Shown: positions 32,288 to 60,119 of the stretch, in pieces
How the letters are laid out: every line of letters starts with the position of its first letter
Position numbering within the stretch: the first letter of the stretch is position 1
Origin: Candidatus Poribacteria bacterium
Lineage (GTDB): Bacteria; Poribacteria; WGA-4E; PCPOR2b
Direction of reading: 5' to 3'
Assembly (NCBI GenBank): GCA_022822005.1
Contig: JAJECO010000062.1
Span: 62,001 to 126,000, forward strand
Length of the DNA stretch: 64,000 nucleotides
Program-made: the position numbers and the translations under genes
Notes under the pieces: generated by a model
Database searches by the model: none
What the model was told of the DNA's origin: nothing
What the model saw: the letters and a program-made list of their open reading frames with translations, nothing else

Positions 32288-32401
32288 TGCTAATCTGTAT
32301 GGGGCGGTGAGGTCTAATCCTGCGGTAGAAATCATCATTCAAGAAGGACTGGATCCGCGACAACGGGTGTAATGGAATCGGGATTCAATCTAATTTTAGT
32401 A

Positions 32402-32431
32402 TTGCGACTGTATTGGTGGGTATGCTATAAT
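32402..32431 (+). promoter_or_regulatory. Promoter of the cohesin-domain gene
   Basis: TTGCGA (32402-32407), 18-nt spacer, TATAAT (32426-32431) preceded by TGC, an extended -10. The predicted start near 32438 is about 75 nt before the ATG at 32513. Confidence 0.5.
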
Positions 32432-32512
32432 CGAATCCTCAGTCGCCCCGATCAGATCGGACATCTCTCTAAACGCAGGTTCGGGCTGCGTACTCGAAGA
32501 AAGAAGACACGC

Positions 32513-33376
32513 ATGAAAAACTCCCTACAATCCCGCTGGAATCGGAATTCAAACCAACTTGTAACCCCGCTTGCGTTGCACTTTAAAGCGACTTGTATAA
32601 TCACGATTCTTTTGGCAGTTCCGTCGCTGGTTTTTGCACGAGCCACGGTGTCCATCCAGCCGGGAGAGATGGAATCTCCAGCCGTTGGGCAGGAATTTTC
32701 CGTGGATGTGAGCATCAGCAATGGTGCAAGCGTAGCCGCGTATCAGTTCACTGTGGAGTTCGATCCGCAGAAGCTGGCACTTGTGGAAGCAAAGAATGCT
32801 GATTACTTGGCGGAGGGCGCCTTTGTGGTACCACCAATTATTACCGACAATGATGTGACACTGGCAGCGACCTCTTTGGCTGATGCATCCGATGGAGATG
32901 GCACCCTTGCAACCATTACTTTTGCCGTGGTTGAGGTTAATCCCTCTACGATCACATTTACAGCAGTTCTCCTGTCTGATCCAGACGCCAACCAGTTAGA
33001 TGTAATCACGACAAACGGTCAAATTACCGGCCCGCCGGATGTGAATGAAGCTCCAGTCGCCGTGATTGAAGTCCTTCCATCGAAAGTTTTCGTGGGTGAA
33101 ACGGTTTCGTTAAACGCCGCAGGTTCACAAGATGATAGCGGTATCAGCACTTACGTTTGGCGCTTTGGCGATGGTTCTACTGCCGAGCGGAAAGAGATGG
33201 TTACGCATGTTTATCAGCAACCCGGCAATTACACCGTCACGCTCACGGTCACTGATGATGGGGTCCCTCCACTGCAAGATCAAGTTATTTTTGTAGTCAC
33301 GGTTACTGACAAGAACTTGTCTGTCCGTCAAAAGGGGAAGCAGATAACATCATGGGGGCAGCTTAAGAGGAGATAG
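32513..33376 (+). CDS. Secreted cohesin-like and PKD domain protein with C-terminal WG motif
   Basis: 287 residues from ATG 32513. Signal peptide with a hydrophobic core ATCIITILLAVPSLVFA (cleavage near residue 43). Residues about 45-165 form a cohesin-like domain (VSIQPGEMESPAVGQEFSVDVSI, AAYQFTVEFDPQKLAL, GTLATITFAV), which in cellulosomal systems binds dockerins. Residues about 175-265 form a PKD domain (NEAPVAVIEV, YVWRFGDGSTAE, HVYQQPGNYTVTLTVTDDG). The last 20 residues, LSVRQKGKQITSWGQLKRR, resemble the tails of the two TolB-type proteins at 57.4 and 59.2 kb. No dockerin gene is in the window. The terminal KRR codons also form the AGAGGAGA ribosome-binding site of the next gene. Confidence 0.85.
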   Translation: MKNSLQSRWNRNSNQLVTPLALHFKATCIITILLAVPSLVFARATVSIQPGEMESPAVGQEFSVDVSISNGASVAAYQFTVEFDPQKLALVEAKNADYLAEGAFVVPPIITDNDVTLAATSLADASDGDGTLATITFAVVEVNPSTITFTAVLLSDPDANQLDVITTNGQITGPPDVNEAPVAVIEVLPSKVFVGETVSLNAAGSQDDSGISTYVWRFGDGSTAERKEMVTHVYQQPGNYTVTLTVTDDGVPPLQDQVIFVVTVTDKNLSVRQKGKQITSWGQLKRR

Positions 33377-38621: not shown

Positions 38622-39650
38622 CGTTCCGATTTCATCGAGAATCCCGAGTGTCGGGAATTTCATCGGGATTCAAAGCAACTTAATTTGTGTGGTCAACCCA
38701 TCGCTGAACCACCGGCGACGTTGATAGCGAGTCCCGTGAGATAATCGGACTCGGACGACGCGAGAAAAGCCGCCGTTCTTGCCACATCTTCCCCTGTGGC
38801 AACCCGTCCCAAGGGAACCCTCGAATCGCGTTGCCTCATCGCCTCATCGTGCCGCCCACTTGCCCGCCACTCTTCGCCGGATATATCTTCTGACGATAGG
38901 GCGGCAGCTATATAACTCCATCGCTCGGTGTCGACAACACCGGGACAGATGGCATTCACGTTGATATGGTGTGATGCTAATTCTTGTGCCAAGGCTTGCG
39001 TAAAACCGATTACTCCGAATTTGGAAGCGGCATACGCTGCGAAACGTGCCGAGCCTTGTCTGCCTGATACCGAGGACATGGTAATAATCTTTCCACCGCC
39101 ACCGCGGTCTATCATATGTCGAGCAACCGCTCTACAGCAGAGAAAGGTCCCTTTGAGGTTGATATTGTGCACGTCATCCCATGCCTCTTCCTCCAGTTCA
39201 ACCACCGGCACACGGTCGGGACCCGGACGTGAACCGGCGTTGCACACGAAGATATCGATTTGCCCGAACTGCTCAACGCCTTCATCTACCAGCGCGTCCA
39301 CCTGATTGGCGTTAGATACATCCGCTAAGATGGTCACCGCTTGTCGCCCCATCCCCTCAATTTCACGAACAACGGAAGGGGCTCCCTCCCAATCGCTTGA
39401 GACATGGGCATAAGGATTGCTGACAACATCACTGACAATGACATCAGCCCCCTCCTTAGCGAGCCGTGTGGCGATCGCACGACCGATGCCGTGTTCACCG
39501 CCTGCACCCGTTATTAGGGCGACTTTTCCGTTAAGGTTATACATATAATTTTTCCTCGTTCCGATTTCATTGAGAATCCCGAGTATCGGGAATTTCATCG
39601 GGATTCAAAGTAACTTAATTTGTGTTGTCAACCCATCGCTAAACCACCGG
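38622..39650. repeat. Tandem gene duplication with duplicated flank
   Basis: The sequences 38622-38703 and 39555-39650 are near copies (ccgttccgatttcat, the CCCGAGTRTCGGG hairpin, aacttaatttgtgt, then the 3' end of an SDR gene). With the two SDR coding regions they define a direct duplication with a period of about 930 bp covering 38622-40509. Confidence 0.8.
38693..39544 (-). CDS. SDR family oxidoreductase, tandem copy a
   Basis: 283 residues from ATG 39544 (GAGG upstream; longer forms read into the repeat). Classical SDR: cofactor loop ALITGAGGEHGIGRAIA, FVCNAGSRPG (NAG), catalytic Ser in ITMSSVSGRQG and Tyr/Lys in YAASKFG, then CPGVVDTER and a C-terminal VAGGSA. Cytoplasmic NAD(P)-dependent dehydrogenase. 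It is about 90% identical by eye to copy b, immediately upstream. Substrate unknown. Confidence 0.9.
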   Translation of the reverse strand: MYNLNGKVALITGAGGEHGIGRAIATRLAKEGADVIVSDVVSNPYAHVSSDWEGAPSVVREIEGMGRQAVTILADVSNANQVDALVDEGVEQFGQIDIFVCNAGSRPGPDRVPVVELEEEAWDDVHNINLKGTFLCCRAVARHMIDRGGGGKIITMSSVSGRQGSARFAAYAASKFGVIGFTQALAQELASHHINVNAICPGVVDTERWSYIAAALSSEDISGEEWRASGRHDEAMRQRDSRVPLGRVATGEDVARTAAFLASSESDYLTGLAINVAGGSAMG

Positions 39651-40509
39651 CGACGTTGATAGCGAGACCCGTGAGGTAATCGGATTCGGACGACGCGAGG
39701 AAAGCCGCCGTGTTTGCCACATCTTCGCCTACGCCAACCCGCCCGATGGGCACCTCCGAATTGCGTTGTTTCATCGCTTCAGCATGTCGTCCACTTGTCC
39801 GCCACTCTTCACCGGAGATGGTTTCAGACGACATGGCAGCCGCTATGTAACTCACCCGCTCGGTATCAATAATGCCGGGACAGATGGCATTCACGTTGAT
39901 ATGGTGAGGTGCCAGTTCTTGTGCCAAGGCTTGGGTGAAGCCGATCACTCCAAATTTAGAGGCGGCATACGCTGCGTGACGTGCTGAACCCTGTCTGCCC
40001 ACAACGGAAGACATGGTAATGATTTTTCCACCGCCACCGCGGTTTGTCATATGTCGAGCGACCGCTCTGCAACAGAGAAAGGTCCCTTTGAGGTTGATAT
40101 TGTGCACATCATCCCACGCATCTTCTTCCAGTTCAATCACCGGCACACGGTCAGGACCCGGCCGTGAACCGGCATTGCACACGAAGATGTCAATATGTCC
40201 GAACCGCTCAACGCCCTCATTTATCAGCGTGTCCACTTGATCAGCATCGGATACATCTGCTAAGATAACCGCTGCCTGTTGTCCTAACGCCTCAATTTCA
40301 CGGACGACAGAAGGGGTACCCTCCCAACCGCTTGTCCCCCCCTTATTCCCCCCGCCAGCGGGGGGAAAAGGGGGGTAGGGATTGCTGACAACGTCACTCA
40401 CAACGACATCCGCACCCTCCTTGGCGAGCCGTGTGGCGATCGCACGACCGATGCCGTATTCACCGCCCGCACCCGTTACCAAGGCAACTTTTCCGTTAAG
40501 ACTGTACAT
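39628..40509 (-). CDS. SDR family oxidoreductase, tandem copy b, with in-frame repeat insertion
   Basis: 293 residues. Same motifs as copy a (ALVTGAGGEYGIGRAIA, FVCNAGSRPG, ITMSSVVGRQG, YAASKFG, CPGIIDTER). Between SNPY and GWEG it has about 10 extra residues (PPFPPAGGGNKGGTSG in place of AHVSSD), encoded by a C/G-run palindrome at 40336-40375. The insertion lies in the loop after beta-2, near the adenosine-ribose part of the cofactor site, so activity may survive. The gene heads the duplication and probably shares a transcript with the E1/E2 genes. Confidence 0.9.
   Translation of the reverse strand: MYSLNGKVALVTGAGGEYGIGRAIATRLAKEGADVVVSDVVSNPYPPFPPAGGGNKGGTSGWEGTPSVVREIEALGQQAAVILADVSDADQVDTLINEGVERFGHIDIFVCNAGSRPGPDRVPVIELEEDAWDDVHNINLKGTFLCCRAVARHMTNRGGGGKIITMSSVVGRQGSARHAAYAASKFGVIGFTQALAQELAPHHINVNAICPGIIDTERVSYIAAAMSSETISGEEWRTSGRHAEAMKQRNSEVPIGRVGVGEDVANTAAFLASSESDYLTGLAINVAGGLAMG
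40336..40375. repeat. C-run/G-run palindrome inside SDR copy b
   Basis: CCCCCC-ttatt-CCCCCCGC-cag-CGGGGGG-aaaa-GGGGGG. It is absent from the paralogous position of copy a (near 39400) and related to the cccccttatcaggggg intergenic palindromes near 28.57 and 51.42 kb. It adds 30 nt and keeps the frame. Confidence 0.75.
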
Positions 40510-57423: not shown

Positions 57424-58503
57424 TCAGTCAATCTGCTTGAGCCATCCCCATGTCGTGAATTTTTTGCCTGCGGGAGAAACTGCAAAGGCAGAGCCAAACC
57501 ACGCAGGGCTACCGTCACTATGCGGATTATTGGTGAGGTTTTGAGGATTACCCCCATCGGCGTCCATAACGTAGATTTCAGACGTGAGCCAACCGAGTAT
57601 AGGGTGAACGTGCCCATCCCGCTGAGACGAAAAGACAATACGTTTGCCGTCAGACGACCATGAGGGAGAACCGTCATCAACGCGATTATTGGTGAGTCTA
57701 CGCGTATTCCCCCCATCGGCGTCCATAACATAGATTTCAAAGTTTACATCGTCTCCCTTCCTATCAGCCGAGAAGGCAATCCATTTACCGTCCGGAGACC
57801 ATGAGGGAGCCCAATCTGTCTTGCGATTATTGGTGAGTCTACGCGTATTCTTCCCGTCGGCGTCCATCACGTAGATTTCAGAAGAGAGTCCAAATTCGCC
57901 TATAAAGTGCCCATCCCTCTCAGACACGAAGGCAATCCGTTCACCATCCGGGGACCATGAGGGAGCCGAATCATAAAAATCATTGTCAGTGAGTCTTTGC
58001 TGATTGTTCCCATCGGCGTCCATTACGTAGATTTCATAGTTTTCCTGGTTCCCATCCCTATTCCCATCCCTCTCAGACGCGAAGACAATCCGTTCACCGT
58101 CCGGAGACCATGAGGGAGAGACATCACTATTGGGATCGTTAGTGAGATTTTGCTGATTCCCCCCATCGGCGTCCATCACATAGATTTCATAATTGGGTAG
58201 TCTTCCGGGCATATCAAAGTGCCCATCCCTATCAGACATGAAGGCAATCCGTTTACCGTCCGGAGACCATGAGGGAGAGTAGTCAAAATTGGGATCGTTA
58301 GTGAGGTTTTGAGGATTGCCCCCATCGGCGTCCATAACGTAGATGTCAGAAGTGGGCCAACCGAGTCTAGGGTGGACATGCCCATCCCTATTAGACACGA
58401 AGGTAATCTGTGCCTGTGCGTTTACGACTACCATCAGCGGCGTTAGACCCAAGACGACAACGCCAGCTAAAATGAAATGGGTGAGATTGTCTCTCCGTTG
58501 CAT
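57424..58503 (-). CDS. Secreted TolB-like six-bladed propeller protein (1) with C-terminal WG motif
   Basis: 359 residues from ATG 58503 (GGAGGAAAG upstream). Signal peptide with core FILAGVVVLGLTPLMVVVNAQA. Six PD40/WD40-like units of about 42 aa, each with EIYVMDADGGN..NLTN...PSWSPDGKRIAF.S.RDGH, closing a six-bladed propeller, then the tail FAVSPAGKKFTTWGWLKQID. The DNA of the repeats is highly similar, so blade number could change by recombination. Paralogue of the gene at 59172, from which it is separated by a MITE-like element. Function not assigned; TolB-type propellers bind protein partners or glycans. Confidence 0.88.
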   Translation of the reverse strand: MQRRDNLTHFILAGVVVLGLTPLMVVVNAQAQITFVSNRDGHVHPRLGWPTSDIYVMDADGGNPQNLTNDPNFDYSPSWSPDGKRIAFMSDRDGHFDMPGRLPNYEIYVMDADGGNQQNLTNDPNSDVSPSWSPDGERIVFASERDGNRDGNQENYEIYVMDADGNNQQRLTDNDFYDSAPSWSPDGERIAFVSERDGHFIGEFGLSSEIYVMDADGKNTRRLTNNRKTDWAPSWSPDGKWIAFSADRKGDDVNFEIYVMDADGGNTRRLTNNRVDDGSPSWSSDGKRIVFSSQRDGHVHPILGWLTSEIYVMDADGGNPQNLTNNPHSDGSPAWFGSAFAVSPAGKKFTTWGWLKQID

Positions 58504-59171: not shown

Positions 59172-60119
59172 TTATCGGTCGCCCTGTTTAAGCCATCCCC
59201 ATATCGTGAGTTTTTTATCTGCGGGAGCAACTGAAAGCACAGGGTTAAGCCATGCAGGATCTTCGTCATCTTCGGGATGATTGGTGAGGTTTCGCGGATT
59301 CCCCCCATCGGCATCCATTACGTAGATGTCCCGATTCAAATCCCTCGTCCTACTCGACACGAAGGCAATCCGTTCACCGTCCGGCGACCATGAGGGATGC
59401 CAGTCCCTATCGGGATGATTGGTGAGGTTTTGCTGATTTCCCCCATCGGCGTCCATCACATAGATGTCTGTTTGCCCATTCCTCGTGGACGAAAAAGCAA
59501 TACGCTTACCGTTAGGGGACCATGAGGGGTCCTTATCAGCACTAGGATTGTTAGTGAGGTTTTGCTGATTTTCCCCATCGGCGTCCATCACGTAGATGTC
59601 ACTGTGACCATCCGCCCCAAAGCCAAAAAAGACAATGCGTTTACCGTCCGGAGACCATGCGGGTGAAAACTCATTCTGGCGGCGGTGATTGGTGAGGTTT
59701 TTAGGGTTGCCTCCATCGGCATCCATCACGTAGATGTCCGCCGAGGAAATAAAGAGAATGCGTTCACCGTCCGGCGACCATGAGGGATCCCATTCATCAG
59801 AGTCGTGGTTAGAAAGGTTTTGCTGATTGCCCCCATCGGCGTCCATCACGTAGATTTGCCGGTTCCACTCCCTATCATTTCTATCGGCGGTAAAGGCAAT
59901 GCGTTTAGCGTCCGGAGACCATGAGGGGTCCTTATCAGCACCAGGATTGTTAGTGAGGTTCTGCAGATTCCCCCCATCGGTGTCCATCACATAGATTTCC
60001 CAGTTCCAATCCCTATCAGACATGAAAGCAATCCGTGCCTGTGCGTCTACGACCGCTATCAGCAGCAAGACCATAACGCTAGCTAAAATCAAATGTGCAA
60101 GATTGTATCTCCGTTGCAT
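59172..60119 (-). CDS. Secreted TolB-like six-bladed propeller protein (2) with C-terminal WG motif
   Basis: 315 residues. N-terminus MQRRYNLAHLILASVMVLLL is a signal peptide paralogous to the 57424 protein. Six PD40-like units (QIYVMDADGGN.QNL.N....DPSWSPDGERI.F.S), then the tail LSVAPADKKLTIWGWLKQGDR. GGAGGA is 8 nt before the ATG. The two genes share head and tail but differ in blade spacing, so they are an old duplicate pair. Confidence 0.88.
   Translation of the reverse strand: MQRRYNLAHLILASVMVLLLIAVVDAQARIAFMSDRDWNWEIYVMDTDGGNLQNLTNNPGADKDPSWSPDAKRIAFTADRNDREWNRQIYVMDADGGNQQNLSNHDSDEWDPSWSPDGERILFISSADIYVMDADGGNPKNLTNHRRQNEFSPAWSPDGKRIVFFGFGADGHSDIYVMDADGENQQNLTNNPSADKDPSWSPNGKRIAFSSTRNGQTDIYVMDADGGNQQNLTNHPDRDWHPSWSPDGERIAFVSSRTRDLNRDIYVMDADGGNPRNLTNHPEDDEDPAWLNPVLSVAPADKKLTIWGWLKQGDR

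Follow-up and report, generated by a model that had tools for sequence, protein, structure and literature searches.

In Bacteroidota, proteins secreted by the type IX system (T9SS) carry a signal peptide for Sec together with a C-terminal domain (CTD). SprA binds the CTD in its interior, where PorV loops surround it (PMC10994853), and PorU cuts within the flexible linker that precedes the CTD (PMC11969387). Different classes of this signal have been described. The type A CTD (TIGR04183 / PF18962, Por_Secre_tail) is an Ig-like domain of ~70–80 aa found on Sec signal-peptide proteins of many architectures, and the type B CTD, which is served by PorP/SprF shuttles, is likewise a domain, long and marked by five conserved motifs (PMC12618676, PMC9143113). 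The shortest T9SS signals reported are those of Prevotella intermedia, comprising 40–55 aa with three beta strands and the motifs B, D and E (PMC11969387). For Poribacteria, Kamke et al. (2014) described T9SS-type (Por secretion) domains in single-cell genomes and WD40-type proteins potentially with TIGR04183, and reported no Por structural genes (PMC3909097).

Here, we analysed a tail of ~17–20 residues at the C-terminus of three proteins encoded in a 64-kb window, by which we mean the whole stretch of poribacterial DNA under study. Like the type A CTD, the tail ends proteins of diverse architectures that have a Sec signal peptide, and it occurs in genomes with SprA, PorV-family and PorU homologues. 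It aligns with the linker that precedes the type A CTD in a subset of Poribacteria cargo. Unlike the type A CTD, the tail is devoid of an Ig-like domain, and the two never occur on the same protein. The short CTDs of P. intermedia offer a parallel in that one organism uses a shortened C-terminal T9SS signal alongside a long one (PMC11969387), but the tail is half as long or less and, going by the published motif layout, unrelated in sequence. Type B CTDs provide the example of a second signal class with dedicated shuttles, a part that could be played in Poribacteria by 8–24 PorV-family paralogues, but no such long domain is present on the tail. With LPXTG, PEP-CTERM and similar sortase/exosortase tags, the tail shares a short C-terminal motif on many exported proteins of unrelated architectures. 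In LPXTG and PEP-CTERM tags, the motif precedes a transmembrane helix and a basic end. The tail differs from them in lacking a transmembrane helix and an LPXTG or PEP motif and in ending 1–10 residues past a conserved K, which agrees with the initial, sequence-only reading of the window, where a likeness to LPXTG or PEP-CTERM had been dismissed. No description of the tail was found in the literature searched (partial coverage, no preprints). In comparison with Kamke et al. (2014), which concerns the same phylum, SprA, PorV and PorU homologues were found here, and the tail forms a separate class, the part of that paper drawn on here reporting no short tail (PMC3909097).

Results

Three tails in the window

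Translation revealed the three tails to be located exactly where the sequence-only reading had placed them (Table 1). The tail KNLSVRQKGKQITSWGQLKRR-stop terminates the plus-strand ORF 32372–33376, for which the start at 32513 was preferred over the first ATG at 32372 based on signal-peptide fit. The minus-strand stretches 57424–57480 and 59172–59228 are the final 18 codons plus stop of two TolB-like ORFs. Of all window ORFs of at least 50 aa, only these three had the motif no more than 25 residues from their C-terminus. Signal peptides had been claimed for all three proteins and were predicted here as well, for carrier gene 1 with the start at 32513 and not with the first ATG. Pfam analysis upheld that the first protein, with a cohesin and a PKD domain, is unrelated to the two PD40/TolB-like propellers. 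As to the proposed core K-[KQ]-[LIF]-T-x-W-G-x-L-K, the motif is real, but it had been drawn too short, with V(−10), P(−8) and K(−5), counted from the W, being conserved as well.

Table 1. Tails and carrier genes in the 64-kb window.
Feature	Position	Strand	Basis
C-terminal tail KNLSVRQKGKQITSWGQLKRR-stop, cohesin/PKD protein	33311..33376	+	translation, consensus
Carrier gene 1: signal peptide, cohesin domain (PF00963), PKD domain (PF18911), tail	32513..33376	+	Pfam, signal-peptide rule
C-terminal tail ...VSPAGKKFTTWGWLKQID-stop, TolB-like protein 1	57424..57480	-	translation, AlphaFold2 pLDDT <50 residues 341-359
Carrier gene 2: signal peptide, PD40/TolB-like beta-propeller, tail	57424..58503	-	Pfam/NCBIfam, AlphaFold2 model
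C-terminal tail ...APADKKLTIWGWLKQGDR-stop, TolB-like protein 2	59172..59228	-	translation
Carrier gene 3: signal peptide, PD40/TolB-like beta-propeller, tail	59172..60119	-	Pfam/NCBIfam

Elsewhere in the window, a neighbouring pair of minus-strand genes (38693–40509) was observed to have near-identical C-termini (AAFLASSESDYLTGLAINVAGG[SL]AMG), apparently reflecting a recent short-chain dehydrogenase duplication.

Consensus and C-terminal enrichment of the tail

Enrichment was measured by means of patterns, profiles and fetched loci of the window's own genome (6.0 Mb). The DNA pattern for T-x-W-G-x-[LIVMF]-K yielded 98 matches compared with 4 (2 + 2) for the reversed control, and in each of the 98 a stop codon followed within 12 residues. 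The shared tail motif is real and far from chance. A looser DNA pattern raised the background in this genome and gained nothing else.

The consensus tallied from 109 ORFs reads [FL](−12) [SA](−11) V(−10) x P(−8) x [GD](−6) K(−5) [LK] x T(−2) x W(0) G x [LI] K(+4), with 2–10 residues after K(+4) in these ORFs and 1–10 in a wider set of loci. The W was present in 336 of 341 tail-type ORFs. Variant tails with W-A in place of W-G amounted to 25 of 336 in the loci seen, an example being L286:2505–5109. At the T, G, L and K positions of the 98 genome matches, every synonymous codon was used; conservation is, therefore, at the protein level, and a DNA-level repeat or mobile element was ruled out.

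Carrier proteins

A simple, crude rule predicted signal peptides in 103 of 107 complete carriers versus 31 of 100 for a background of ORFs that were not curated genes; in each of the remaining four carriers, a signal peptide was recognised by eye. By this prediction, essentially all of the 109 carriers have signal peptides. About 64 of the 109 carriers in the window's own genome are PD40/TolB-like propellers, often encoded in tandem arrays. In one such region (G000:C41:13001–40343; L059, L060), some twenty tandem TolB-like propeller genes were observed, with the tail on almost all of them.

The remaining 45 carriers include laminin-G-like lectins, Kelch propellers, 3-keto-disaccharide hydrolase-like proteins and the cohesin/PKD type, and these carriers, which are not typical TolB-like propellers, comprise at least four unrelated folds. 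Rather than being confined to TolB-like propellers plus one chance match, the outcome under which the sequence-only reading would have been given up, the tail is found on other proteins in 45 of the 109 carriers. The same reading had proposed to look for enrichment at exact C-termini, and this was borne out by the closeness of all pattern matches to a stop codon on signal-peptide proteins with diverse bodies. Between PD40 and non-PD40 carriers, the tail consensus is identical except for positions −4 to −1 and +2. No Pfam or NCBIfam model matches the tail itself.

Distribution

Profile A2, built from 56 tails, detected 134 places in the window's own genome at E ≤ 1, nearly all of them in ORFs of 250–400 aa. 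With this profile, the tail was found in 85 of 85 Poribacteria genomes, at 31 to at least 105 matches each; therefore, there is no within-phylum contrast.

Scanning a collection of 84,980 species with the stricter pattern V-x-P-x-x-K-L-x-T-T-W-G-x-[LI]-K returned at least 116 stretches, and among the matches listed, all but one were from Poribacteria. Given the strictness of the pattern, the tail may be in rare use outside the phylum, as judged among the matches listed. The single exception (L178, JAFDHL010000343.1) was observed in a 'Deltaproteobacteria' bin, where a good Poribacteria-type tail lies in a frame different from that of the adjacent esterase ORF. It is the sole match in its 4-Mb bin, and because there is no second one, the contig is most likely misbinned. 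This lone exception among the matches listed was, hence, not taken as spread beyond Poribacteria.

Structure of the tail

An AlphaFold2 model of TolB-like protein 1, based on 41 aligned sequences, revealed a confident propeller (pLDDT >90 over most of residues 30–338), with the tail (residues 341–359) being disordered at pLDDT <50 and lying outside the propeller fold. The model of a LamG carrier, at a mean pLDDT of 55.9, was too poor for use, and a search of the PDB with the tail profile gave two chance-level matches only.

These data bear on the idea that the tail belongs structurally to its host domain, as might be thought from its position directly after the last domain. The same tail is present behind at least four unrelated folds, and it is modelled as disordered next to a propeller of high confidence, so that a structural element of the propeller is refuted for this class of carriers by the model; the probability of the host-fold explanation is negligible. 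Alternatively, the tail could be a membrane-binding amphipathic helix or a stability tag, which would hold the proteins to the outer membrane or protect their ends without the need for a protein receptor. The spacing of W, L/I and K would suit an interfacial helix, and a weak helix is predicted over TWGYLKTG in a low-confidence model, but the propeller model has no helix in the tail. Moreover, the fixed G after W, the T at −2 and the V-x-P...K register exceed the specificity that membrane binding needs, making this explanation quite improbable.

T9SS homologues in Poribacteria

Co-occurrence of the tail with secretion or processing genes had been suggested as a further check, and SprA, PorV and PorU homologues were indeed found. 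SprA homologues, assigned through TIGR04189/PF14349, were present in 84 of 85 Poribacteria genomes and in none of 14 control genomes, usually as one ORF of ~2,150–2,300 aa. The homologue of the window's own genome (L258:10870–17382) matched TIGR04189 with an E-value of 1.5e-43 and 148 bits, which is below the curated cut-off of 200 bits; this cut-off was exceeded in genome G006 only (508 bits). A phmmer search of SprA against the PDB yielded nothing useful. The SprA/Sov homologue of the window's own genome (2170 aa; G000:C44:15000–34900) was seen to adjoin hisB, outside any T9SS operon.

Proteins of the PorV family, which is broad (PorV_fam), exceeded the cut-off in 85 of 85 genomes at 8–24 each, with 16 matches in the window's own genome. 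PorU homologues were detected in all 13 genomes sampled; the one of the window's own genome (L278:1705–7947) scored 428 bits (cut-off 420) and contains a Peptidase_C25 domain. This PorU-type C25 sortase of 2080 aa is directly followed by a PorV2-like gene (G000:C93:222500–236000; L278:1705–8975). Type A sorting domains over the cut-off were likewise present in 13 of 13 sampled genomes at 26–78 each, with 70 in the window's own genome. The T9SS motor protein GldM (TIGR03517) was found in none of the 13 genomes, and the control genomes likewise gave none. At two further loci (L280:2237–6370 and L285:4225–14898), PorV-family genes were observed immediately 3' of large secreted proteins with FlgD/type-A-like ends, an arrangement that suggests dedicated cargo-shuttle pairs.

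The tail and the linker preceding the type A sorting domain

Four paralogous propellers are encoded in tandem at locus L288 (G000:C57:80000–90900). The longer two, of 484 and 487 aa, have a type A domain at the C-terminus, whereas the paralogues of 400 and 410 aa stop just before the domain and end in a tail-like linker only; accordingly, TIGR04183 matched the long pair only. The 410-aa and the 484-aa protein are 63% identical over 397 residues, and in the 487-aa protein, the linker SVEPQSKRFTTLGDIKRTSLMQN-FPNPFNPETWIPY equals the tail with L for W. As read from their sequences, these paralogues are a natural domain-loss series.

Of the 85 genomes, 36 contained the pattern for linker plus domain start, and these represent 11 of 22 genera; the reversed control gave no match. 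Upon inspection of 44 domain starts, the linker was found to match the tail position by position in 32. Although the 44 had been enriched by the linker pattern, this selection made no use of V(−10), P(−8) and K(−5), and these columns carried the tail residue in 30, 25 and 24 of the 32, respectively. Profile comparison of tail and linker (hhalign) gave a probability of 97.6 at E 2.7e-12, in register. The W position is occupied by L or F in 32 of 32 linker copies. In the window's own genome, 3 of 70 type A matches have the linker match, never with W. Conversely, the start of the sorting domain was found in 0 of 341 tail-type ORFs, so tail and domain never co-occur. By this alignment, the Poribacteria tail would correspond to the linker that is cut by PorU in Bacteroidota.

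The short pair at L288 (400 and 410 aa, TTLG[AE]VKRSA) resembles a recent loss of the domain from paralogues that still have it, and one might regard all tails as functionless leftovers, where a premature stop had removed the type A domain and the linker had stayed. Such a relic would decay, yet W, G and K are kept in 100+ unrelated genes per genome across 85 genomes; furthermore, the W is invariant in the terminal form only, while synonymous codons are free. The leftover explanation is largely refuted by this conservation and appears highly improbable.

A different explanation is that the tail is read by a separate anchoring or processing system specific to Poribacteria and not by T9SS parts, with the linker being the same anchor reused and acting after removal of the domain (anchor first, sorting domain second). 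The strict W of the terminal form as opposed to L or F in the linker suggests a different reader. In addition, tail and type A domain are mutually exclusive, and the tail is confined to one phylum among the matches listed, while T9SS parts occur elsewhere. However, no candidate for a dedicated gene was identified, and the in-register linker match and the paralogue swap tie the tail to T9SS cargo. We consider a separate reader rather unlikely.

Discussion

We propose that the tail is probably a minimal T9SS-type signal of Poribacteria that serves in sorting or anchoring and does without a domain, i.e., a reduced form of the T9SS C-terminal signal that would be read by SprA/PorV/PorU-type machinery. 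It had been put forward as a candidate sorting or anchoring tag, and this is supported by its breadth, its C-terminal enrichment, the signal peptides and the T9SS homologues. These homologues, together with the linker match, also favour the earlier suggestion that the tail is recognised by a secretion, anchoring or processing system, and we infer that some machine recognises it. Against a T9SS reading stands that the tail is without the fold or the motifs that bind PorV in known systems, where the shortest signals reported comprise 40–55 aa. Further points against it are the linker match being confined to a subset of cargo and never having W, the score of the window's own SprA homologue below the curated cut-off, the negative search for GldM, which was empty in the control genomes too, and the lack of a within-phylum contrast.

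TIGR04183 is absent from the families listed for 46 carriers, and neither TIGR04183 nor PF18962 matched any of 56 tails. The tail was not filed as a CTD because, on the features tested, it falls outside both TIGR04183 and the short-CTD class. That it acts like a T9SS signal is a separate claim, which appears likelier than its being a CTD.

According to the proposed mechanism, the N-terminal signal peptide would first direct the tail protein through Sec. SprA/PorV/PorU-type machinery would then recognise the flexible, unfolded tail of ~17 residues, V-x-P-x-x-K-x-x-T-x-W-G-x-[LI]-K, either in the periplasm or once at the outer membrane. Its likeliest reader would be one or more of the 8–24 PorV-family shuttle paralogues or the PorU-type sortase, and the protein would end up on or outside the cell surface. 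On some large cargo, the same segment, with L or F for W, would connect the protein body with the Ig-like type A sorting domain of ~85 residues. Tail genes, by stopping right after this segment, would provide the linker signal without the domain; in this way, the linker segment may have become a stand-alone signal that is marked as such by the W.

More tentatively, a short linear C-terminal code of ~17 residues with an obligatory W-G might by itself direct at least 100 proteins of each genome to the outer membrane or through it, being read by expanded PorV-family receptors or a PorU-type sortase without a folded signal domain. This would be unlike any T9SS signal described.

With the present data, T9SS-type homologues are extended to a phylum for which the structural genes had been reported missing (PMC3909097). 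If the proposed function is true, sister propellers ending either in the tail or in linker plus domain would provide a plain test of what a minimal T9SS signal is. The tail would then define which proteins are at the surface or secreted in an entire phylum that is largely uncultivated and counts abundant sponge symbionts among its members, and would serve as a 20-residue signature that can be scanned for in any metagenome. It would also suggest that a short tag without a fold can bring about sorting at the outer membrane.
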